Positions 33,524-43,895 of a DNA stretch of 64,000 nt are shown piece by piece (the stretch's first letter is position 1; each line of letters opens with the position of its first letter). A program made the position numbers and the translations under genes. The DNA comes from an uncultured Pelagibacteraceae bacterium (GTDB lineage: Bacteria; Pseudomonadota; Alphaproteobacteria; Pelagibacterales; Pelagibacteraceae): assembly GCA_902612575.1 (NCBI GenBank), contig CACMDZ010000002.1:62001-126000 (forward strand). Reading direction: 5' to 3'. The notes beneath the pieces are model-generated. The model made no database searches, was not told the origin of the DNA, and saw only the letters and a program-made list of their open reading frames with translations.

Positions 33524-35170
33524 ATGATTGAAATGAATTCAAATAACTTTTTAGATAATAAAAAAAAAGTATTAGAATATTTTAAAAATCATAACTTTGA
33601 AAAAGTCATTAAATTTGCAAATAAATTAACAAAAAAGAATAATGATTTCCAATTATTTTATGCATTAGGAATAAGTTATTTGAGTTTAAAAAATTACCTA
33701 CAGGCAGAAAAAGCATTTAAAAAGGTAATATCTTTAAAACCTACAGCTGAACATTATTTCATATATGGTAACATACAAAAACAACTAGAAGATTTTACTG
33801 AAGCAGCTAGGTCATTTGAAAGTGCTATAAATATTAAGTCAGATTATTCAGATGCATTCAATAATTTGGGAAATATAAAAAAAAAATTAGGCCTTACTAA
33901 TGAGGCTATTGATAATTATAAGAAAGCAATTCACTCTCGAAAAGACAATTTACAGGCATATTTTAATTTAGCTAATATATATAATGAAGAGAAAAGATTT
34001 GATGATCTTAAAAAAATACTTGAGGATGTTTTAGATTTTGATCAAAATAATACGACAGCATTAAATGATTTAGGTTATTTAAATTTAATACTAGGTAATA
34101 TAGATGAAGGTAGAAAATTGTTTGAAAAGGTTCTTAATATTGATGATAAACATATTAGAGCATTTAAAAATTATTTTTTAATTACAAAAGTAGAAAGTAA
34201 CAACAGATTTTTAAAAAAATTAGAAAATTTAAATTTATCAAATGTTAAAAACGAAGATAAAATATTTGCATATACTAGTCTTAGTAAATGTAATTTTGAT
34301 TTAAATAATTCAAATTTGGCCTTAAAGTACTTAGATGAGTCAAATAAAATTAAGAGAAAAAATTCTAAATTTAGTATTGAAATAGAAAAAAAACTTTTTG
34401 AAAAGATAAAAAATTTATTTAATCATAAGTTAGATGAAATAACTTACTATGATGAAAAATTGAAATTTACACCTATTTTTATCCTTGGCATGCCAAGATC
34501 GGGAACAACTCTCTTAGAACAAGTTTTATCTTCACACTCTTATATTCATGGTGCTGGTGAGTTAAATTGTTTACCAAAAATTATTGATAGATTTAATTTA
34601 GATAAAACTGACAATTTAGATAATTTTTTAAAAACCTTAAGATTTGAATACCATGAGAAGGTATCAAAATTAAGCAATAAACAATTTATAATTGACAAAT
34701 TACCAATGAATTTTAGATGGATTGGATTTATTAGTAAAGCTTTTCCGGAGGCAAAAATAATTCATGTTCATAGAAATCCGATGGCTGTCTGTTGGTCAAA
34801 TTATAGGATTAACTTTCCCGATCCAGGTATGGATTTCTCACTAAGTCAAGAGGGTACTGCAGAATATTACTTATTGTATGACAATTTAATGAGATTTTGG
34901 TCAACTAATATAAAAAAAATTATCCATATCAACTATGAAAATTTTGTAAACGATTTTAAAAATGTAACTCAAAATATAATCAAACAACTTGGTGTTCAGT
35001 GGGAGAAAAATCTTGAAAATTTTAATAAAAATAAAAGGCCAGTGCAAACTGCTTCTTTACTACAAGTGAGAGGGAATATAAAAAAAAATACATCTGAGGA
35101 ATGGAAAAAATACAAAGATTTTCTAAATATTATGCAAGAAATTTTAAAAAAGAATAAAATTAATTTCTAA
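33524..35170 (+). CDS. TPR-repeat sulfotransferase
   Basis: N-terminal TPRs, then FILGMPRSGTTLLEQVLSSH and VHRNPMAVCWSNY sulfotransferase motifs. Confidence 0.88.
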   Translation: MIEMNSNNFLDNKKKVLEYFKNHNFEKVIKFANKLTKKNNDFQLFYALGISYLSLKNYLQAEKAFKKVISLKPTAEHYFIYGNIQKQLEDFTEAARSFESAINIKSDYSDAFNNLGNIKKKLGLTNEAIDNYKKAIHSRKDNLQAYFNLANIYNEEKRFDDLKKILEDVLDFDQNNTTALNDLGYLNLILGNIDEGRKLFEKVLNIDDKHIRAFKNYFLITKVESNNRFLKKLENLNLSNVKNEDKIFAYTSLSKCNFDLNNSNLALKYLDESNKIKRKNSKFSIEIEKKLFEKIKNLFNHKLDEITYYDEKLKFTPIFILGMPRSGTTLLEQVLSSHSYIHGAGELNCLPKIIDRFNLDKTDNLDNFLKTLRFEYHEKVSKLSNKQFIIDKLPMNFRWIGFISKAFPEAKIIHVHRNPMAVCWSNYRINFPDPGMDFSLSQEGTAEYYLLYDNLMRFWSTNIKKIIHINYENFVNDFKNVTQNIIKQLGVQWEKNLENFNKNKRPVQTASLLQVRGNIKKNTSEEWKKYKDFLNIMQEILKKNKINF

Positions 35171-35174
35171 TAAA

Positions 35175-36080
35175 ATGGATACTATATTTCAAACAGTCTG
35201 TAATATTTTCCCTGCATTCAAATTAGATAAAAAATATAAAAAAAAATTATTTTATATATTTTTTTCAATTTGCAAATTATTTTTAAAGGGACCATTTATT
35301 TTAAATTTTGGGAACTTCAAAATTTATACTTATCCTGCTAAAAGTGATTATACGAGATTTTTATTAACTAGAGCTAGTCTACCAGATCCTCGAGAAAGAA
35401 ATATAATTATCCAAAACCTAAAAAACAAAAATAATATATTTATTGACTGTGGTGCTAATGCAGGTTTCTATAGCTTGGATGTAGCCACAAAAGTAGAAAA
35501 TGTTACCACATATGCTTTTGAGCCATCAAAAAAAGAAAAAGTTTTTTTACAAAATAATCTTGATTTAAATAAAATTATTAATGTTGAAATTGTAGACCTA
35601 GCTGTTGGTGATAAAGACGATATTGTAATATTTAATGATACTAGAGATGATAAAATTAACAATTCTAGTGGCGGTGGATTTGTTACGACACATAGTGCAA
35701 AAACAGAAAATAATTATAAAGTTAAAATTATTACTTTAGATAATTTCTTTAAAAATAAAAATTTTGATAAAGAGACAAGTATTTTTATAAAAATTGATTT
35801 AGAGGGATATGACCTTAAAGCAATCAATGGAGCAAAAAATATTATTTTAAATTATGACTGTACAGTTATTTTTGAATTTTCAAAAATGGTTATGAATCAA
35901 AGAGACTATTCAATCAATGATATTGATTTTTTTCTAAAAAAAGGATTTAAACTTTATGACATTTATGGGAAAGAGATGAGTAGTGAGTTATTAGAGTCTA
36001 AAATTCATCATTTAGACGATGATCATGACACTTGTGGAAATATTGTATTATCGAAAAAAAAATTAAATTTTAATTTTTAA
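35175..36080 (+). CDS. FkbM-family methyltransferase
   Basis: NNIFIDCGANAGFYSLDVA, FIKIDLEGYDLKAINGA. Confidence 0.85.
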   Translation: MDTIFQTVCNIFPAFKLDKKYKKKLFYIFFSICKLFLKGPFILNFGNFKIYTYPAKSDYTRFLLTRASLPDPRERNIIIQNLKNKNNIFIDCGANAGFYSLDVATKVENVTTYAFEPSKKEKVFLQNNLDLNKIINVEIVDLAVGDKDDIVIFNDTRDDKINNSSGGGFVTTHSAKTENNYKVKIITLDNFFKNKNFDKETSIFIKIDLEGYDLKAINGAKNIILNYDCTVIFEFSKMVMNQRDYSINDIDFFLKKGFKLYDIYGKEMSSELLESKIHHLDDDHDTCGNIVLSKKKLNFNF

Positions 36081-36111
36081 AATAATTAATTTAAATTTCT
36101 TATTTTAATTC

Positions 36112-36140
36112 TTGCCAAATTAAAAAAAAGCTACTATTTT
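36112..36140 (+). promoter_or_regulatory. Candidate sigma70 promoter of the ancestral tRNA-Gly, now driving the tRNA half/attL
   Basis: TTGCCA - 17 nt - TATTTT, 17 nt upstream of the tRNA 5' end at 36158. Confidence 0.45.
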
Positions 36141-36151
36141 CAATACTATTA

Positions 36152-36198
36152 GAACAAGCGGGCATAGCTCAGTGGTAGAGCGTCTCGTTGCCAACGAG
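36152..36198 (+). repeat. attL: left copy of 47-bp direct repeat (tRNA-Gly 5' half)
   Basis: gaacaagcgggcatagctcagtggtagagcgtctcgttgccaacgag identical to 42964-43010. Confidence 0.92.
36158..36198 (+). pseudogene. Truncated tRNA-Gly (5' half through anticodon stem)
   Basis: Matches nt 1-41 of the intact tRNA at 42970; diverges right after CCAACGAG. Confidence 0.9.
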
Positions 36199-36255
36199 GT
36201 AGTCCACGTTCCTTTTGCAAGACTAATCAATCCTTATTCGACATGTAAATGTTTT

Positions 36256-36285
36256 CGGCCACACTGACGGCCACACTTCGGCACA
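36256..36285. promoter_or_regulatory. Candidate integrase arm-type sites, left arm
   Basis: CGGCCACACT at 36256 and 36268 (12-bp period) followed by CGGCACA; the same CGGCCACACT-CGGCACA at 42849-42865. Confidence 0.5.
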
Positions 36286-36304
36286 AATTAGAAAGGAAAA
36301 AGCA

Positions 36305-37285
36305 ATGCCGACATTAAGAAAACACTATGGATCTTGGCAGTCTATTGTACGGATCCAAGGTCATCCTACCTTAACAAAATCCTTTAAGAGTCGAACAGAT
36401 GCAAAACGGTGGGGAGTTGAAACTGAACTCAAACTAAGACGAGAAGATGCAGGGATAGCAAAGATAAAATTCCCTAAGTTTGAAGATGTTGCACGTCGAT
36501 ATGTTGAGGAAGTATCAATCCATAAGAGATCACATAGGGATGAACGTTATACAATCCTGGGCCTGTTCCATGAGGCGTGGTCTAGTTATCCAATACATAG
36601 GATTAGACCAACTACTATCAATAACTACATGGCGAAGTTATCTGAGACTGTTAGTGGTAGCACAATCAATAGAAGACTTGATGTTATCTCTAGCATGTTC
36701 ACTACATTTAAAAAGGAGTACGGATATCCAGTAGACAATCCAGTGTTGTCGATACGTAGACCTAAGAAAGCACAACCAAGGGACAGACGTTTTACTGATG
36801 AGGAGTTAGATAAGTTAATCAAAGGGAATAGAACTTCACCGCAGCTTAGATCCATAATGAAGATTGCATTGGAAACTGGTTTAAGAATGTCTGAAATCCT
36901 GAGGCTTGATGCTCGATTAATAGAAGGAAGTACAATTAAAATACCAGTAGCAAAAACTAGGCCACGTATAATCCCACTAACTACTGATGCATTGGCCGAG
37001 ATCCGTAATGCAGATCTACCATTTACATTAACGAAGTATGCATTGGATAAGCAATTCAGAAAGCTATGTAAATACTACGGAATAGAAGATGCACACTTTC
37101 ATGACTTACGTCACCAGGCGTTGACTAACTTCATGAAGGATAAGGGATTAAATGTACCTGAAACAATGATGATTGCAGGGCATTCAGATCCAAGAATGTT
37201 ATTGCGTATTTATAATAATTTAGAGGTGAGTCATGTTGCCAACAAATTAAATAATGACTCTAAATCAACAAAACAAAACGCTTGA
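36305..37285 (+). CDS. int: Tyrosine recombinase / integrase
   Basis: ALETGLRMSEILRL, FHDLRHQALTNFM, IAGHSDPRMLLRIYNN (R..H-x-x-R..H..Y layout); 107 bp inside attL. Confidence 0.95.
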   Translation: MPTLRKHYGSWQSIVRIQGHPTLTKSFKSRTDAKRWGVETELKLRREDAGIAKIKFPKFEDVARRYVEEVSIHKRSHRDERYTILGLFHEAWSSYPIHRIRPTTINNYMAKLSETVSGSTINRRLDVISSMFTTFKKEYGYPVDNPVLSIRRPKKAQPRDRRFTDEELDKLIKGNRTSPQLRSIMKIALETGLRMSEILRLDARLIEGSTIKIPVAKTRPRIIPLTTDALAEIRNADLPFTLTKYALDKQFRKLCKYYGIEDAHFHDLRHQALTNFMKDKGLNVPETMMIAGHSDPRMLLRIYNNLEVSHVANKLNNDSKSTKQNA

Positions 37286-37311
37286 ATAATTTTAATAAGT
37301 AATTAAATAAG

Positions 37312-37373
37312 GTCTAGTTGCGGTGGCAATCGTAACTAGACTAAAATTTTGTAGAAGGCTTTTTTAAATTTTA
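37312..37373. other. Two consecutive inverted repeats in the intergenic region after the integrase
   Basis: GTCTAGTTGCG-gtggcaat-CGTAACTAGAC (11-bp stem, one G-U), followed by CTAAAATTT ... AAATTTTAG. Confidence 0.7.
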
Positions 37374-37534
37374 GTGACAAGTCGGAAAGCCTCTCGGTTT
37401 TGTCTCAATATCGTAATAGACACCTTGAACACTGGACGGATCGCAAAGGAAAGAAATCATACAGCACGAAATTGGCGTTCGCTAACTTAGCCAGAAAAAA
37501 GTTGGATTGATTAAAAAACTTTGAGGAGTTCAAT

Positions 37535-37771
37535 ATGTTTAAGATGAAAAGAAATAACGAGAGGATATTTGAATTTAATAACAGAATTCATGGGATTAGT
37601 GGTGGCCACTACAATAATCTTTCCTCATCTACTGTCTTCATCAAACCATCTATCGAACTTCTTGATGATTTAACCGATCATGCATGCAAACTAATCACTT
37701 GCATGCGTGGTCTTAATTCAAGGAGAAAGCAATGGAAAATCCAAAGCAATCAAACAACGTTGTTAAGATAG
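37535..37771 (+). CDS. Hypothetical small protein of the element
   Basis: 78-aa ORF with GAGGAG upstream; overlaps the next ORF. Confidence 0.4.
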   Translation: MFKMKRNNERIFEFNNRIHGISGGHYNNLSSSTVFIKPSIELLDDLTDHACKLITCMRGLNSRRKQWKIQSNQTTLLR

Positions 37772-38151
37772 GACACAACTCAAACAGATCTATCACTCAG
37801 GAAACTGTTGAGAAAATCTCAAATAGATTGTTGCACATCACTGATGTTGTAATGAATAATATTCGAGTCATAGAACAAAAATATTTTGAGGCATCAACTA
37901 AGTATCCCTATAGCGCTAAAGGCAGAGGTTGGGAAAGACACAAAAAGTTGTTACCGCATCATGTCGAAGATGCAAGACGTGAAGGTGATGAAATGATCCA
38001 AGAAATGGTGAATAACTTAGCTGATGAGCAAGATAATTTGCAATCAGCACTCAAAGAAAAATACGGAATAGAAGTCGAGTCTGCACGTCAGAAATGGAAT
38101 AGAGAATGTGCAGAAGAAGACAGGAGGATTGCAGATGAACAAAAGAAATAA
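37732..38151 (+). CDS. Hypothetical element protein
   Basis: 139-aa charged/helical ORF with AAGGAG upstream. Confidence 0.6.
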   Translation: MENPKQSNNVVKIGHNSNRSITQETVEKISNRLLHITDVVMNNIRVIEQKYFEASTKYPYSAKGRGWERHKKLLPHHVEDARREGDEMIQEMVNNLADEQDNLQSALKEKYGIEVESARQKWNRECAEEDRRIADEQKK

Positions 38152-38593
38152 TCAGCAACTCAATCCAAATGTTCAACCACTATACGACGAATTATCTGTA
38201 AAGTTTATTGCAAGTACAGGTAAGTTTGAAAGTGAGAACGGACAAACATTTGATAATGCAAAAGATGCAGTTAAACACAATGACGATATCTATAAATTCT
38301 GTTTAGGTTTTGGAAGTGGACAACCAAAAACAAAGACTGAAAGATTGAAGAAGTCATTAGCGTTTGGCAAAAAACAATTCAACAAAGCAAAAGGGATGCA
38401 AAGGCACGCCGCATTTATTAAGGCAGAAGATAAAGCGAAAGAGTCTGCACCTGTTGTTGATACTGATCTATTCTACAATGAGATAGCAAAGATCAGAGAG
38501 GGTTTAGAGGAAATGAAAACCTATAAGCCTGAACCTAAGCCCAGGAAATCAACTGGCATAAATACAATACTGGGGGTTTATGACGATCAGTAA
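38108..38593 (+). CDS. Hypothetical element protein (supplied start overlaps previous gene; a later start such as MNKRNN near 38135 is likely)
   Basis: 161-aa ORF in the + strand cassette. Confidence 0.6.
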   Translation: MQKKTGGLQMNKRNNQQLNPNVQPLYDELSVKFIASTGKFESENGQTFDNAKDAVKHNDDIYKFCLGFGSGQPKTKTERLKKSLAFGKKQFNKAKGMQRHAAFIKAEDKAKESAPVVDTDLFYNEIAKIREGLEEMKTYKPEPKPRKSTGINTILGVYDDQ

Positions 38594-38936
38594 AATTAAA
38601 CATAGATCCTTAGCAGATAAGTATCCCAAGTCAGAAGTGATTTGGGATATCTTACGAGGTAAAACAAGATATCGTAAACCACAATTTTGTGAGCATAACA
38701 TGGTGGCTTACAAAGACTTGCACAACATAGTTGATAGACAGTTAACCATAATAAACAGAATGGCTATGGCTATTAACAATATGGAACGGAAGTTTACTCA
38801 AAATGCAAAGACAGTTGAGTACATAACTAAGAAAGCCTCAGAACATGTTGATGCAGCGGATAAAGCTGTAATCAGTAGAGATCAAATAATCAACGAATTA
38901 TCCATAAAACTAAAACAAAAAGGAGGAATGAACTAA
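38580..38936 (+). CDS. Hypothetical element protein
   Basis: 118-aa ORF with start overlapping the preceding stop. Confidence 0.6.
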   Translation: MTISKIKHRSLADKYPKSEVIWDILRGKTRYRKPQFCEHNMVAYKDLHNIVDRQLTIINRMAMAINNMERKFTQNAKTVEYITKKASEHVDAADKAVISRDQIINELSIKLKQKGGMN

Positions 38937-39382
38937 TGACTAAAAGAATGATTAAAGATCCATATTTTGAAATGTATTCAAAAGGAGGAAATGTATCTAA
39001 ACGTTTAGAAGGTAAAGGAAACTTATCTGAGAAAAAAGAGCTGCTGAAGTTAGCTGATGCAGAAAAAGAAAGATTTGATTTTGAAACAGGTCTTATCCAA
39101 ACACTGAGAGAAAAATACATGGAAGAACGTGAAGGCAATGAAACGTTTTCTGATTGGTTAAAATCTAAACCGGATGATTATCTCAGACGTATTAGCCTGG
39201 ACAAGGGAGGTAAAGTTATAAACTTCGCTGACTATGCAAAGATGAAAGATCCTAAAATTAAGAAGTTAGATCTAGCTAGTTTGTTTGCAGATCAGGCAAA
39301 AACTTTAGCTAGTTTAACGCCACAAGAACTGGAGTCTGTAAATGATTTGTTACGTAGAACATTAAAGCACATGAAGGATTAA
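38936..39382 (+). CDS. Hypothetical element protein
   Basis: 148-aa ORF with an AGGAGG-containing upstream sequence (aaaggaggaatgaactaatg). Confidence 0.6.
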   Translation: MTKRMIKDPYFEMYSKGGNVSKRLEGKGNLSEKKELLKLADAEKERFDFETGLIQTLREKYMEEREGNETFSDWLKSKPDDYLRRISLDKGGKVINFADYAKMKDPKIKKLDLASLFADQAKTLASLTPQELESVNDLLRRTLKHMKD

Positions 39383-39383
39383 C

Positions 39384-39557
39384 ATGAGTGATAGCATGAC
39401 TTCAAATGTAGTTGTTAAGAAAGAAACTTGCGACGATCATTGGTTTAGTAGTGGGCCATGTCCATACAAACACAACAAAGACGGAACCATAATGACTGTT
39501 AAGAGTAGAGAAACAAATTGGATGGAATGTCCAGTTTTAAAGAAGGGGTATGAATAA
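39384..39557 (+). CDS. Small Cys/His-containing protein (57 aa; not in the supplied ORF track)
   Basis: Hand translation MSDSMTSNVVVKKETCDDHWFSSGPCPYKHNKDGTIMTVKSRETNWMECPVLKKGYE; directly abuts the genes on both sides. Confidence 0.5.
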   Translation: MSDSMTSNVVVKKETCDDHWFSSGPCPYKHNKDGTIMTVKSRETNWMECPVLKKGYE

Positions 39558-41659
39558 TGCATGAAGTTAATTTAGACCCTATATCAGCGCTTTTAAAGAC
39601 TGATGCTACTGTGTTTTGGTCGGATTATGGATCTAAAGCAATTACTGAAAGTTGGACAGTAAGATTAAATAAACAGATCAAACAGTTAGACCAAGTTAAA
39701 CAATTCCAAAACTTAAACATTGCAACTGGTAGAGAAAGTTTAATTGTAGATGTGGATCTTGATTGTGAAGAAACTCAGAAACTTGCAGATAGTTTTTTAC
39801 CTGAAACTGATTGCGAGTTTGGTAGAGAAAGTACACCAAGAGCGCATAGGTTATTCAAAGTCCTGGATCTAAAAGCAAAAGATACTAGAAAATATTTTGA
39901 CTACAAAGATCCTGCACAACCAAAGAAAGCAATGCTTGTAGAAGTTAGAGCTAACAAACATTACACAATGTGTTGGGGCCAATACGACAACGGCGAGAAA
40001 GTTACCTGGACTAAACATGGAGATCCAACTGAAATTACCTGGGATGCATTAAATAAAGCCTGCGCATTGTTAAGTGTAGCATCAGTTATTTTAAGGAAGT
40101 ATCCACCTTCAGGAACGCATGATGAATACTTACGTTTAGTTGTTAATACATTATGGCATCACAAAGTAACAAAAGAAGATTGCACGAGTATATTGAAAGC
40201 AGTTATTGCAGGTCATGAATGTGAGAATTGTAATGAAGGTAAGCTATCTAAAATAGAGACTACATACGGCAAAGATAGAACAGATCATATTGCAGGTTTA
40301 CCAAAGCTAGCAGAAGAATTTAACTGGCATGAAAGCGAAGTAAAAGACTTCAAGAAATTGCTATTAAAGATAACTGGTAGAGACGCATTACCTGCATACA
40401 CAAATGATTTTGTAACTCGGATTGCCTACATGATGAAACAAAAGAAGTATTACGATCTTGAAGACAAAGAAATGTATGATGCTGAGGCTATTGATGTGAA
40501 GTATGCAAAGTATTTTCAGAACGATAAATATACACCATTAAAACATTGGAAGATGCATCCTGACAGTAGAGTGTGTGTGGACTTCACTTACAAACCTAAT
40601 GATGCAAATAGATTTGTTAAAGTTAATAAAAAATTAATGATAAATGTTTTTGAAAAGCATGATCTACAACCAGATCCAAAAGCAGATACAGATATTTTTT
40701 GGGCATTAATAAAACATATAATTCCACATGAGCCAGAACGTAATCACTTCTTAGATTGGTATGCTTATCCTCTACAAAATCCAGGGATGAAGATTAGACA
40801 TGCAATCATTCTACAATCAGATGAGTTTCAATTAGGTAAGGGAAGTTTATTTGACTTACATAGATTAATGTTGGGCCACAACAACACCAGGAAGATAGAA
40901 CTAGCCGAGGCACTTGATAAAGGAAAAGGATATTTAATTAATGCACAAACAGTTTTAATTGATGAGGCTAAGTCTAGCGGTAGTTGGACTGAGAAAGCAC
41001 AATTAATAAACACACTCAAAACAATTATTACTGAAGGTACGATTGGGGTTAGGCAGCTCTACAAAGAATATTCTGAGCAAGATACATGTACTAACTATTG
41101 GATTAATACAAACTATCGAGATGCATTCCCACTTCCATACAATGAAGTTAGATACTGGGTATATTTTAGTCCTGCTAAAAGAAACCAACAAATGCTTGAT
41201 GAATTTCACTTTGCAAAAGATAATTACAATCTAGCAGGAGGAGTCCTGGCAGAACTTCTTGATAGAGATCTAAGTAAATTTAATCCATTAGCGCCTGCAC
41301 CGCATACAACATTCAGAGATGAGATGAGTCAGTTAGCAGATAGACCCGTTAATGATTACATCAAAGAACAGTTTGAACAACAGGTACATCCATTTGATAG
41401 AGACATGGTTACTGTTACTGAGTTGTTTGAGTATCTTAAAATAGAAAAAAGATTGAAACTAACTAGAGAGCGTGAAGTAGCTAACGCATTAAGTTTGTTA
41501 GGTGGCATTAAGAAAAAAGGATGCAAAGTAACTAACGTTGGCGATCATGTAACTATTTGGACAATAAGAAATCATAAGGAATATCAAGGCTTAACCGCAG
41601 CGGAACTAGGCAAGAAGTATGTTCCATTCTATGAAGACAGTAAAAAAGGAGGGAAATAA
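39557..41659 (+). CDS. Primase-polymerase / D5-like superfamily 3 helicase replication protein
   Basis: N-terminal LIVDVDLDC acidic motif and prim-pol-like region; C-terminal LDWYAYPLQNPGMKIRHAIILQSDEFQLGKGSLFD...VLIDEAKSSG...CTNYWINTNYRDAFPL typical of phage/plasmid D5-like helicases. Confidence 0.82.
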   Translation: MHEVNLDPISALLKTDATVFWSDYGSKAITESWTVRLNKQIKQLDQVKQFQNLNIATGRESLIVDVDLDCEETQKLADSFLPETDCEFGRESTPRAHRLFKVLDLKAKDTRKYFDYKDPAQPKKAMLVEVRANKHYTMCWGQYDNGEKVTWTKHGDPTEITWDALNKACALLSVASVILRKYPPSGTHDEYLRLVVNTLWHHKVTKEDCTSILKAVIAGHECENCNEGKLSKIETTYGKDRTDHIAGLPKLAEEFNWHESEVKDFKKLLLKITGRDALPAYTNDFVTRIAYMMKQKKYYDLEDKEMYDAEAIDVKYAKYFQNDKYTPLKHWKMHPDSRVCVDFTYKPNDANRFVKVNKKLMINVFEKHDLQPDPKADTDIFWALIKHIIPHEPERNHFLDWYAYPLQNPGMKIRHAIILQSDEFQLGKGSLFDLHRLMLGHNNTRKIELAEALDKGKGYLINAQTVLIDEAKSSGSWTEKAQLINTLKTIITEGTIGVRQLYKEYSEQDTCTNYWINTNYRDAFPLPYNEVRYWVYFSPAKRNQQMLDEFHFAKDNYNLAGGVLAELLDRDLSKFNPLAPAPHTTFRDEMSQLADRPVNDYIKEQFEQQVHPFDRDMVTVTELFEYLKIEKRLKLTREREVANALSLLGGIKKKGCKVTNVGDHVTIWTIRNHKEYQGLTAAELGKKYVPFYEDSKKGGK

Positions 41660-41883
41660 TGGGAGTATCATACGGTAATAAATCAGTCAAAATTTTTACA
41701 AAAACTAAACATGTAAAAATAAATAATACATATAATGCGAAGTTATATGGTGTGATTGAGGGGCCTATAAATCAAATGCTTAAATATTATCCAAATGAAT
41801 TTAAGTTTTTAAGACATGAAACCAAAGAGATGTTACGATCTAAGAGTCAAAGTAACGAAAAAATAATTGCGCCAAAATCTTAA
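41659..41883 (+). CDS. Hypothetical small element protein
   Basis: 74-aa ORF with AGGAGG upstream (aaaaaaggagggaaataatg). Confidence 0.5.
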   Translation: MGVSYGNKSVKIFTKTKHVKINNTYNAKLYGVIEGPINQMLKYYPNEFKFLRHETKEMLRSKSQSNEKIIAPKS

Positions 41884-42287
41884 TTGCGCCAAGATTGTTA
41901 AATATTTTTTTCTGACTTTGCAAATTAGCTTACTTTGGTTACTGAGCCTGCTAATCTCATAAAGTTTTGGAGGCGATCAAGAGACCCCAATATGTAGGAA
42001 AAAGTCACCCTATATCACCCTGAGATAATTTAAATATGTTACGCTAAGTTACGTTAAAAGATATCGATTACTGAGTCATAGAGCCATTTATTTTAAAGTT
42101 ATCGACGTAACGAGTCCCTGGGACTCCAGAAATAATTCAAGGGTACTGTGACATGCAAAACTTACTCTAATTTACTCTAAAAACTTAACCGAAGTTAACT
42201 TGAAAATCCCTGGTTCATGAGTCTTTATGCGGGTTAATTCAGGTTAAGTTGCAATAAATTCAAAGTAAGTTTCGGAGTAAGTTACAT
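41864..42287. repeat. Repeat-rich noncoding region, candidate element replication origin
   Basis: TAATTGCGCCAA x2; tandem GTTACGCTAA/GTTACGTTAA; CTTACTCTAA/TTTACTCTAA; GGTTAATTCA/GGTTAAGTTG; AGTAAGTTTCGG/AGTAAGTTACAT; palindrome GAGTCCC-T-GGGACTC at 42112-42126. Confidence 0.55.
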
Positions 42288-42470
42288 TGATCTAATTGCA
42301 CTATAAAGAAAACCAACTATGGCTAATGCACCGCCTACATAAGATACATAGATAGACCACTCAAAATCATATTGAAATATCATTCCAAAAAATAAAAATG
42401 GCGCTGATGCAAATACCATTAACCATCCCCACATGTCCTTATCTTCAATCATTCCTTTTAACCACTTCAT
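42282..42470 (-). CDS. Small two-TM membrane protein
   Basis: GWLMVFASAPFLFFGMIF and IYVSYVGGALAIVGFLYSAI hydrophobic segments; start overlaps upstream stop by 4 nt. Confidence 0.6.
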   Translation of the reverse strand: MKWLKGMIEDKDMWGWLMVFASAPFLFFGMIFQYDFEWSIYVSYVGGALAIVGFLYSAIRSM

Positions 42471-42670
42471 GAGGCAATAGCTTTCTTTGCATGTTCATGG
42501 TGGCACTCTTTGCACATAGGGCCTTCATTCATTTCAAAATCTGAAAAATAAATTTTCTGAATAGTGTGAACAGGTTTTTCTCTACTACAAAAAATACACC
42601 TAGCCGTGTTTGGTTTTTCCAATGTTTCAGCGGTTATTTTGTCCTGAGAATTTATATTATACCATGCCAT
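42467..42670 (-). CDS. Small zinc-ribbon-like (CxxC...CxxCH) protein
   Basis: RCIFCSREKPVH...GPMCKECHHEHAKK. Confidence 0.6.
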   Translation of the reverse strand: MAWYNINSQDKITAETLEKPNTARCIFCSREKPVHTIQKIYFSDFEMNEGPMCKECHHEHAKKAIAS

Positions 42671-42671
42671 G

Positions 42672-42821
42672 TTAGGATCCCTTTATGGGACTCCAAAACG
42701 ATTTTGTAAAGACTAACTTTGCAGATGTTAGACTATAGTCTGACTATTAGGATCCCTATCTACAAAAACGGGTATAGGGGTCGAAGTTAAAAACCATATT
42801 TAGGATTGCGTTAGGATCCCT
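42672..42821. promoter_or_regulatory. Three TTAGGATCCCT repeats plus an AGACTATAGTCT palindrome: candidate operator array
   Basis: TTAGGATCCCT at 42672, 42747, 42811 (first copy followed by CTTT, so 11th base C/T varies); palindrome 42730-42741; upstream of the minus-strand pair. Confidence 0.5.
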
Positions 42822-42848
42822 CTAAGTATCTTTTTCTCGACTCAGTTT

Positions 42849-42896
42849 CGGCCACACTCGGCACAGAAGAATCTTGCTTTGTTCGACTCAGTGTGG
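42849..42896. promoter_or_regulatory. Candidate integrase arm-type sites, right arm
   Basis: CGGCCACACTCGGCACA at 42849-42865 and inverted AGTGTGG at 42890-42896. Confidence 0.45.
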
Positions 42897-42963
42897 GATA
42901 ATATAGGAACTAAAGTTGGAGTGTATTTACATTGGCAGTAAAGGTTTTTAGGCTCTTGCTTTG

Positions 42964-43010
42964 GAACAAGCGGGCATAGCTCAGTGGTAGAGCGTCTCGT
43001 TGCCAACGAG
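42964..43010 (+). repeat. attR: right copy of 47-bp direct repeat
   Basis: Identical to 36152-36198. Confidence 0.92.
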
Positions 43011-43044
43011 AAGGTCGTGGGTTCGAGTCCCATTGCCCGCTCCA
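42970..43044 (+). tRNA. tRNA-Gly (anticodon GCC), CCA encoded
   Basis: GCGGGCA...TGCCCGC acceptor, TTGCCAA anticodon loop, TTCGAGT T-loop, TCCA 3' end. Confidence 0.97.
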
Positions 43045-43049
43045 AAATT

Positions 43050-43895
43050 ATGATTATTTGGATCGCCTCCTACCCTAAAAGTGGGAACACATATTTAAGA
43101 TCTTTTATTGCATCATATTATTTTTCAAAAAAAGGAAAATTTGATTTTGATCTACTCTTAAACATACTACAATTTCCATCTATAAAATTCTCAAAAAAAA
43201 AAATTAATTCTGAACTCGAGGCGTGTCAAAATTGGATCTACAACCAACAGCAATTTTTCTCCGGTGACAAAATTCATTTCATAAAAACACATAATTGTCT
43301 TAATCAATATAAAGGAAATGATTTTACAACAAAAAATTTATCTCTTGGTGCTATATATGTAGTAAGAGATCCAAGAAATTTAATTACATCAATGACTCAT
43401 CATTACTCAATAGATTATAATGAAGCTTACTCCAAATTAATAAACGAAAAACAAACACTTCTAGAAAAATCTTCAGATGGTGATTATAGCAATTTTACCT
43501 TTTTAGGTTCTTGGTCAAAACATTACAATTCTTGGAAAAATACAGATAAATTCAAAGTTTTATTTATTAAGTATGAAGACTTTGAAAATAATAAATTAGA
43601 TACATTTAAAAAAATAATTTACTTTGTAAATAGTTTAAAAAGTGAAAACTCTTTAATTAATGAGAAAAAACTTATTAATTCAATTAATTCTACAAATTTT
43701 TCAAACTTAAGAAATAAAGAAGAAAATGAAGGATTTGAGGAAAGCGTTTATTCTAGAACTGGGAAAAAAAAACGTTTTTTTAATTTAGGGTTTAATAATA
43801 GGTGGCAAAAAATTTTACCTCAAGATATTTTATTTAAAATAAATAATAGTTTGCAAAATGAATTAAATGATTTAGGATATAATTTAAATGAGTGA
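43050..43895 (+). CDS. Sulfotransferase-family protein (paralog 3)
   Basis: MIIWIASYPKSGNTYLRSF, VRDPRNLITS; supplied ORF start (42984) lies inside the tRNA and is artefactual. Confidence 0.88.
   Translation: MIIWIASYPKSGNTYLRSFIASYYFSKKGKFDFDLLLNILQFPSIKFSKKKINSELEACQNWIYNQQQFFSGDKIHFIKTHNCLNQYKGNDFTTKNLSLGAIYVVRDPRNLITSMTHHYSIDYNEAYSKLINEKQTLLEKSSDGDYSNFTFLGSWSKHYNSWKNTDKFKVLFIKYEDFENNKLDTFKKIIYFVNSLKSENSLINEKKLINSINSTNFSNLRNKEENEGFEESVYSRTGKKKRFFNLGFNNRWQKILPQDILFKINNSLQNELNDLGYNLNE

Follow-up and report, generated by a model that had tools for sequence, protein, structure and literature searches.

A candidate phage satellite of SAR11 bacteria with a terL-proximal site shared with HTVC023P-type pelagiphages

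Background

The question raised by this locus is how a small integrative element that encodes an integrase and a replication protein, and in which no virion or conjugation genes were recognised, spreads among SAR11 bacteria. The element is inserted at tRNA-Gly(GCC) of an uncultured Pelagibacteraceae bacterium (SAR11; assembly GCA_902612575.1, contig CACMDZ010000002.1), within the 64,000-nt stretch of that contig that was analysed here, designated the window, and all coordinates are those of the window. The carrier genome was 0.99 Mb in 52 contigs and 73% complete, and its relatives by element content were named Pelagibacteraceae single-cell genomes. A preliminary description of the locus had proposed a replicating satellite or hitchhiker that depends on a helper phage or vesicles, and considered it the best candidate in the window for an undescribed system. 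The present analysis indicates that the element is probably an integrative SAR11 phage satellite, with a site that would mimic the packaging region of HTVC023P-type pelagiphages.

Results

A non-coding site of about 127 bp near the right end of the element contained two copies of the word TTAGGATCCCT, 64 nt apart (Table 1). Elements of the same replication type (DUF5906), with differing integrases and tRNA targets, had in common a non-coding TTAGGATCCCT pair with a spacing of 63-65 nt near the int end. A strict form of the pair was found in 13 contigs of IMG/VR, ten with an adjoining gene for the large terminase subunit (TerL) and three that were circular satellites of the window element's family. 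The TerL beside the strict-pair site matched its PHROG family with an E value of 1e-107, and one contig, L088, also had genes for the portal and the small terminase subunit (TerS). A relaxed form of the pair occurred in 46 contigs, of which 39 had an adjoining TerL, three were satellites, two were probably truncated phages and two were apparently unrelated. The probably truncated contigs (L112 and L130) carried TerS and ended at the site, so that TerL had probably been cut off, while the unrelated ones (L135 and L138) had coding-like sequence without TerL and were taken as chance matches.

The phage copies of the site were located just upstream of terL, 59-130 bp from its start. The TerL of the site-bearing phages, represented by a reference copy, was 72% identical to that of HTVC027P and 62% identical to that of HTVC023P, and these phages were therefore assigned to the HTVC023P-type pelagiphages. 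The isolate HTVC027P and the genome 023Pt_psg01 had diverged versions of the site at the same place. A search of the phage collection with element DNA gave no relative, a result accounted for by the divergence of the sites in the isolates.

Among 397 SAR11-family genomes, the strict pair was present in four (the window's genome, G249, G192 and G189), and all four contigs carried genes of the window element's family; a reversed-pattern control gave no matches in the same 397 genomes. The word itself occurred three times in the 0.99-Mb carrier genome, each time in the element and all within 150 bp. Alignment of the sites revealed a conserved AAAA(C/T)G(A/T)TTTT motif and a block resembling TAAGTCTTGC, and the first word was followed by a GGGG-rich stretch. 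When both words were omitted, the window and phage sites matched in register at 39-45% of positions, above shuffled sequences that preserved base composition and not dinucleotides (p 0.0002-0.002).

The preliminary description had called for homologous elements in related genomes and for an excised-circle junction, and relatives of the window element provided both. Integrated relatives in SAR11 genomes occupied tRNA-Asn (L017), tRNA-Leu (L018), tRNA-Thr (L020), tRNA-Met (L049) and the same tRNA-Gly as the window element (L026 and L027). Circular relatives in IMG/VR were L021 (7700 bp), L022 (7849 bp), L029 (5878 bp), L031 (6071 bp), L033 (5875 bp), and L093 and L095 (8.9 kb). The related elements share an integrase, a hallmark protein designated C1 and a replication gene, and structural genes were absent from every close relative. 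The L033 circle, whose integrase was 79-80% identical to that of the window element, carried an attachment site (attP) that matched the attP predicted for the window element at every position over 51 bp. When the collection viral_contigs was searched for the replication protein, a single-sequence scan gave nothing and a profile scan gave four relatives.

Three of the circles (L029, L031 and L033) had a replication protein of the AAA_25 type instead and encoded a Terminase_2 TerS, and the integrases of these TerS-encoding circles were 64-79% identical to that of the window element. The top-ranked match of their TerS in the phage collection was Pelagibacter phage HTVC027P (42% identity). The same AAA_25 and TerS type was integrated in tRNA-Met of a SAR11 chromosome (L049, 5748-11493).

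Several side observations were made on related loci. L019 (5593-10294) held a degraded tRNA-Met element with a truncated integrase and, by eye, deacetylase- and formyltransferase-like cargo. In L052 (3164-6227), the two copies of a duplicated 87-bp 5' part of tRNA-Leu lay about 2.9 kb from each other, with another intact tRNA-Leu alongside, probably as a result of repeated insertions at one hotspot. L024 (1511-4411) and L030 (84-3416, minus strand) encoded large helicase-like cargo proteins of 966 and 1110 aa with an apparent nuclease-like N-terminus, which possibly serve in anti-phage defence. An open reading frame (ORF) of about 113 aa after the replication gene in L018 and L021-L024, absent from the window element, had a distant RusA-like Holliday junction resolvase match (PHROG E 3e-6).

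The preliminary description had placed a 47-bp perfect direct repeat around a 6.8-kb element in tRNA-Gly, and the repeat proved to be exact, bounding an element of 6812 bp. It could be extended to 50 bp with one mismatch (36149-36198 and 42961-43010, spacing 6812). The attachment (att) core comprised 6 bp and nucleotides 1-41 of tRNA-Gly(GCC). The window has one intact tRNA, at the right end of the element, the left end having the 5' half alone, and an Rfam scan gave nothing beyond this tRNA. The integration target is thus the tRNA 5' half with the anticodon arm, where the 3' end would be more usual. The length of the repeat and the completion of a tRNA by its second copy exclude a chance match. 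The GC content was about 35% within the element and 24-27% in the immediate flanks.

The empty locus that had been called for was also found. A tRNA-Gly locus next to the same downstream gene could be scored in 29 relatives, and in all of them the tRNA 5' half was single-copy. In several (L063, L064 and L081), the sequence preceding the intact tRNA-Gly resembled the left flank of the element, so the left flank is the former upstream region of the tRNA and the site is empty in the relatives. The locus therefore has the integrase, the flanking att repeats and the clean empty site in relatives by which an integrative mobile element is recognised. To either side of the tRNA-Gly site are sulfotransferase-like and methyltransferase-like genes (33524-36080 and 43050-43892), and the gene at 43050 stands between the tRNA and its usual neighbour.

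The gene content agreed with the cassette described earlier, with an integrase, six small plus-strand ORFs between int and the replication gene, a further one downstream of that gene, and two minus-strand genes (67 and 62 aa) forming a unit. The proposed primase-polymerase and D5-like helicase character of the 700-aa protein was supported by DUF5906 (PF19263, E 8e-8, above the curated cut-off) and a PHROG DNA primase (E 6e-33), while the Prim-Pol match taken alone fell below its curated cut-off (E 0.002). Its homologues in L017, L026 and L027 were 57-74% identical. The spacer downstream of int, thought to be structured, did contain a terminator-like hairpin, but the fold energy of the whole region was unexceptional (z = -1.8). 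The repeat-rich character of the region after the replication gene was borne out by five AAGTTA/TAACTT words at 41884-42290, where 0.7 were expected in shuffled sequences (several words were tried), and 23 bp at 41961-41983 were conserved in L021-L024.

Scans against Pfam and PHROG detected no capsid, terminase, portal, relaxase or type IV secretion system genes in the element, as had been reported, and no TerS or other packaging-redirection gene. The small ORFs, checked in case the element were a degraded prophage, showed no homology to phage structural genes. No ORF in the window matched AlpA or HTH_17 in Pfam, the only match being a weak one to HTH_17 in the relative L020. In most of the 14 elements compared, the C1 gene directly preceded the replication gene, and nine of 140 near-complete SAR11-family genomes carried it. 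Neither C1 nor its conserved core had a significant match in the phage collection; a weak likeness of C1 and of the 118-aa ORF to small phage ORFs near TerS was judged to be coiled-coil noise. By eye, the 152-aa ORF had a short C-terminal GLxxILGI-like motif, similar in relatives. AlphaFold models were poor (predicted local distance difference test, pLDDT, of 63 for C1 and 52 for the replication protein).

Table 1. Features of the tRNA-Gly element and its boundaries (window coordinates)
Feature	Position	Strand	Basis
Left host flank, the original tRNA-Gly upstream (promoter) region, now before int	36110..36157	+	similarity to L063, L064, L081
attL, 47-bp repeat, truncated tRNA-Gly 5' half	36152..36198	+	repeat and tRNA detection
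Tyrosine integrase (int), 326 aa	36305..37285	+	PF00589 E 6e-18; PHROG integrase E 4e-50
Terminator-like hairpin after int	37312..37341	+	14-bp stem
ORF, 78 aa	37535..37771	+	no family match (Pfam, PHROG)
ORF, 139 aa, with IGHNS motif	37732..38151	+	homologue in L026, 38% identity
ORF, 152 aa, variable	38135..38593	+	weak match in L017, E 0.003
ORF, 118 aa, coiled-coil-like, cluster C14	38580..38936	+	homologues in L017, L026
C1 hallmark ORF, 148 aa	38936..39382	+	present in 13/14 elements compared
ORF, 57 aa	39384..39557	+	open reading frame
Prim-Pol/DUF5906 primase-helicase-like replication protein, 700 aa	39557..41659	+	profile matches
ORF, 74 aa	41659..41883	+	open reading frame
Repeat-rich non-coding region, candidate origin	41961..42290	+	word count, conservation
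ORF, 62 aa, small hydrophobic (membrane-like) protein	42282..42470	-	hydrophobicity by eye
ORF, 67 aa, with CxxC pairs, zinc-finger-like	42467..42670	-	homologues in L020, L056, L057
Candidate packaging-site mimic, AAAACGATTTT then TTAGGATCCCT at 42747 and 42811	42695..42821	+	shared pattern
Promoter-like TTGCTT-N17-GATAAT upstream of attP/tRNA	42874..42902	+	pattern kept in L026, L033, L029
attR, 47-bp repeat	42964..43010	+	repeat and tRNA detection
Intact tRNA-Gly(GCC)	42970..43044	+	tRNA detection

The promoter-like sequence upstream of attR was not reported by a scan with a strict sigma-70 consensus; L026, L033 and L029 retained TTGATT-N17 with similar -10 boxes. In the circle, this promoter would point toward int. 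Once the element is integrated it would read into the tRNA, and int would lie behind the native upstream region of the tRNA. With an att core formed by the tRNA 5' half, integration probably leads to an exchange of promoters.

Discussion

Packaging sites of tailed phages commonly adjoin the terminase genes, and copies of such sites are known from satellites. The position of the shared site beside terL and its presence in satellites suggest that, if the element is a satellite, the site is likely to be a packaging site of the cos or pac type. Alternatively, the site could be a phage regulatory element, for instance an operator or a late promoter ahead of terL, by which the element, still a satellite, senses helper infection. 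The proximity of the site to the terL start would suit such a role, as would the divergent 67-aa gene, which starts 70-100 bp from the site in the window element, L056 and L057 (76 bp in the window) and whose ribosome-binding region in the window overlaps a third TTAGGATCCCT (42672-42682). However, no leftward ORF of at least 45 aa starts beside the site in the satellites L095, L022 and L018, and the gene flanking the site on its far side is likewise leftward in the phage contigs that were inspected, so that the cases share no single direction of transcription. These two observations favour packaging, and a pair at a fixed spacing of 63-65 nt suits a protein-DNA packaging complex. We regard the regulatory explanation as rather unlikely. 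An origin recognised by phage replication proteins would likewise be a conserved non-coding site in phage and satellite, and satellites often use helper factors for replication, but the element encodes a replication protein of its own, the gene for which is followed by a distinct conserved repeat region, and a location beside terL is typical of packaging sites. A shared origin is thus improbable.

The nature of the element itself can also be read differently. A self-contained, plasmid-like integrative element whose spread relies on vesicles or natural transformation, with no helper phage, would explain a gene set limited to replication and integration and devoid of virion genes, but not the pelagiphage terL-proximal site, which in SAR11 genomes is restricted to this family, nor the phage TerS of close circular relatives; only a small probability was given to this explanation. 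A degraded prophage would account for the phage-type integrase and primase. It is very hard to reconcile with the intact state of all main ORFs, with related elements, circular ones included, of the same size and layout, and with the lack of a structural gene in any close relative; no full-length phage with the same array of int, C1 and replication gene plus virion genes was found.

Several points weigh against a satellite with a mimicked packaging site: 1) encapsidation, excision and packaging of the element are predicted from sequence, 2) the isolate HTVC027P has only the diverged site and HTVC023P has no recognisable version, 3) the site is absent from L017 and L027, which are among the nearest relatives by replication protein and may use a different helper, 4) no excisionase was identified in the element, 5) the 67-aa gene beside the site leaves a regulatory role possible and 6) presence in IMG/VR does not establish a virion origin, so that the circles are only suggestive.

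The satellite reading nevertheless fits all of the evidence and withstood both attempts at refutation that were made. The element has no virion genes of its own, and the terL-proximal site is a specific sequence link to a putative helper phage. Of the two vehicles proposed earlier, a phage is favoured because the element carries the site of HTVC023P-type pelagiphages, and vesicles are less favoured. Eight copies of the element amount to 54.5 kb and nine to 61.3 kb, which bracket the average HTVC023P-type genome of about 58.8 kb (PMC9599517). This is compatible with concatemer packaging as demonstrated for PICMI115 (PMC10803314), although it is not proof.

In the mechanism that we propose, recombination by the integrase would take place at the 47-bp core within the tRNA-Gly(GCC) 5' half, excision yielding a 6.8-kb circle. 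The Prim-Pol/DUF5906 protein would replicate the circle into concatemers, probably from the repeat region. The terminase of the helper, putatively a virulent HTVC023P-type pelagiphage, would then recognise the element's copy of the site and load the concatemer into helper particles for delivery to new cells. On integration, the tRNA would gain an element-borne promoter and int would fall under the native tRNA promoter.

The element resembles the phage-inducible chromosomal minimalist islands (PICMIs) of Vibrionaceae (PMC10803314), which are small capsid-less satellites of marine bacteria with an integrase and a DUF5906-type primase, lack TerS and capsid-remodelling genes, and use a virulent-phage helper with a genome about eight times the size of the island; in SAR11 the helper is a candidate. 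It differs in that PICMIs integrate beside fis and carry alpA, whereas the window element lies in the 5' half of tRNA-Gly, without a detected AlpA, and with small ORFs of its own such as C1. Moreover, cos or pac sites of the PICMI helper could not be identified by the authors (PMC10803314), whereas a terL-proximal site shared with the candidate helper was found here. Virion-encapsidated integrative mobile elements (VEIMEs; Eppley et al. 2022), as portrayed in citing papers (PMC10803314, PMC10690885), are likewise marine, integrative, small and satellite-like, with relatives in viral sequence collections. According to those papers they are defined by concatemers inside marine virions, whereas the SAR11 element is known here from sequence.

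Phage-inducible chromosomal islands (PICIs) and cos-type satellites also have an integrase and a primase and redirect packaging by TerS, as do the sister elements L029, L031 and L033, or by a mimicked site, as the window element, which lacks a TerS, may do. Unlike PICIs, the element has no recognised Stl- or AlpA-type regulator, capsid-size gene or interference gene, and its host group is different. Tycheposons of Prochlorococcus are tRNA-targeted tyrosine-recombinase elements of streamlined marine bacteria; the window element shares these traits and was set apart, by description only, on its minimal cargo. The Charybdis elements are small, circular and marine, are found in viromes and are in some cases integrated beside tRNAs (PMC12324425). 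They are about 4.6 kb, with an archaeal host where known, a Gp3 hallmark and no recognised replication gene (PMC12324425), and identity with them was set aside on size and gene content (Gp3 was not searched for).

To call the element an undescribed system was therefore too strong, since capsid-less marine satellites packaged as concatemers had already been described as VEIMEs and PICMIs. A literature search returned no paper combining a pelagiphage with a helper phage, or SAR11 with a satellite and a packaging site; VEIMEs were represented by the citing papers, so some members of the family may already be among the published VEIMEs. What appears to be new is the SAR11 variant, for which both a candidate group of helpers and a candidate mimic of a packaging site can be named.

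Conclusions

Our confidence is evenly divided on a broader proposal, in which SAR11 satellites united by C1, of two replication types (DUF5906 proteins, many with a mimicked packaging site, and AAA_25 helicases with their own TerS), would parasitise HTVC023P-type pelagiphages, and integration into tRNA 5' halves would swap promoters, so that the host tRNA promoter would drive int and a satellite promoter the tRNA. The shared terL-proximal site would make the pairing of satellite and helper readable from sequence, which was not possible in the PICMI study, and cultured candidate helpers exist (HTVC023P and HTVC027P on HTCC1062), so that the pairing is testable. SAR11 bacteria are among the most abundant on Earth. 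The HTVC023P-type pelagiphages have been described as widespread and abundant (PMC9599517). If the proposed relationship is correct, a satellite on these phages would influence SAR11 mortality and gene transfer, and part of the particles counted as phage would hold satellite DNA.

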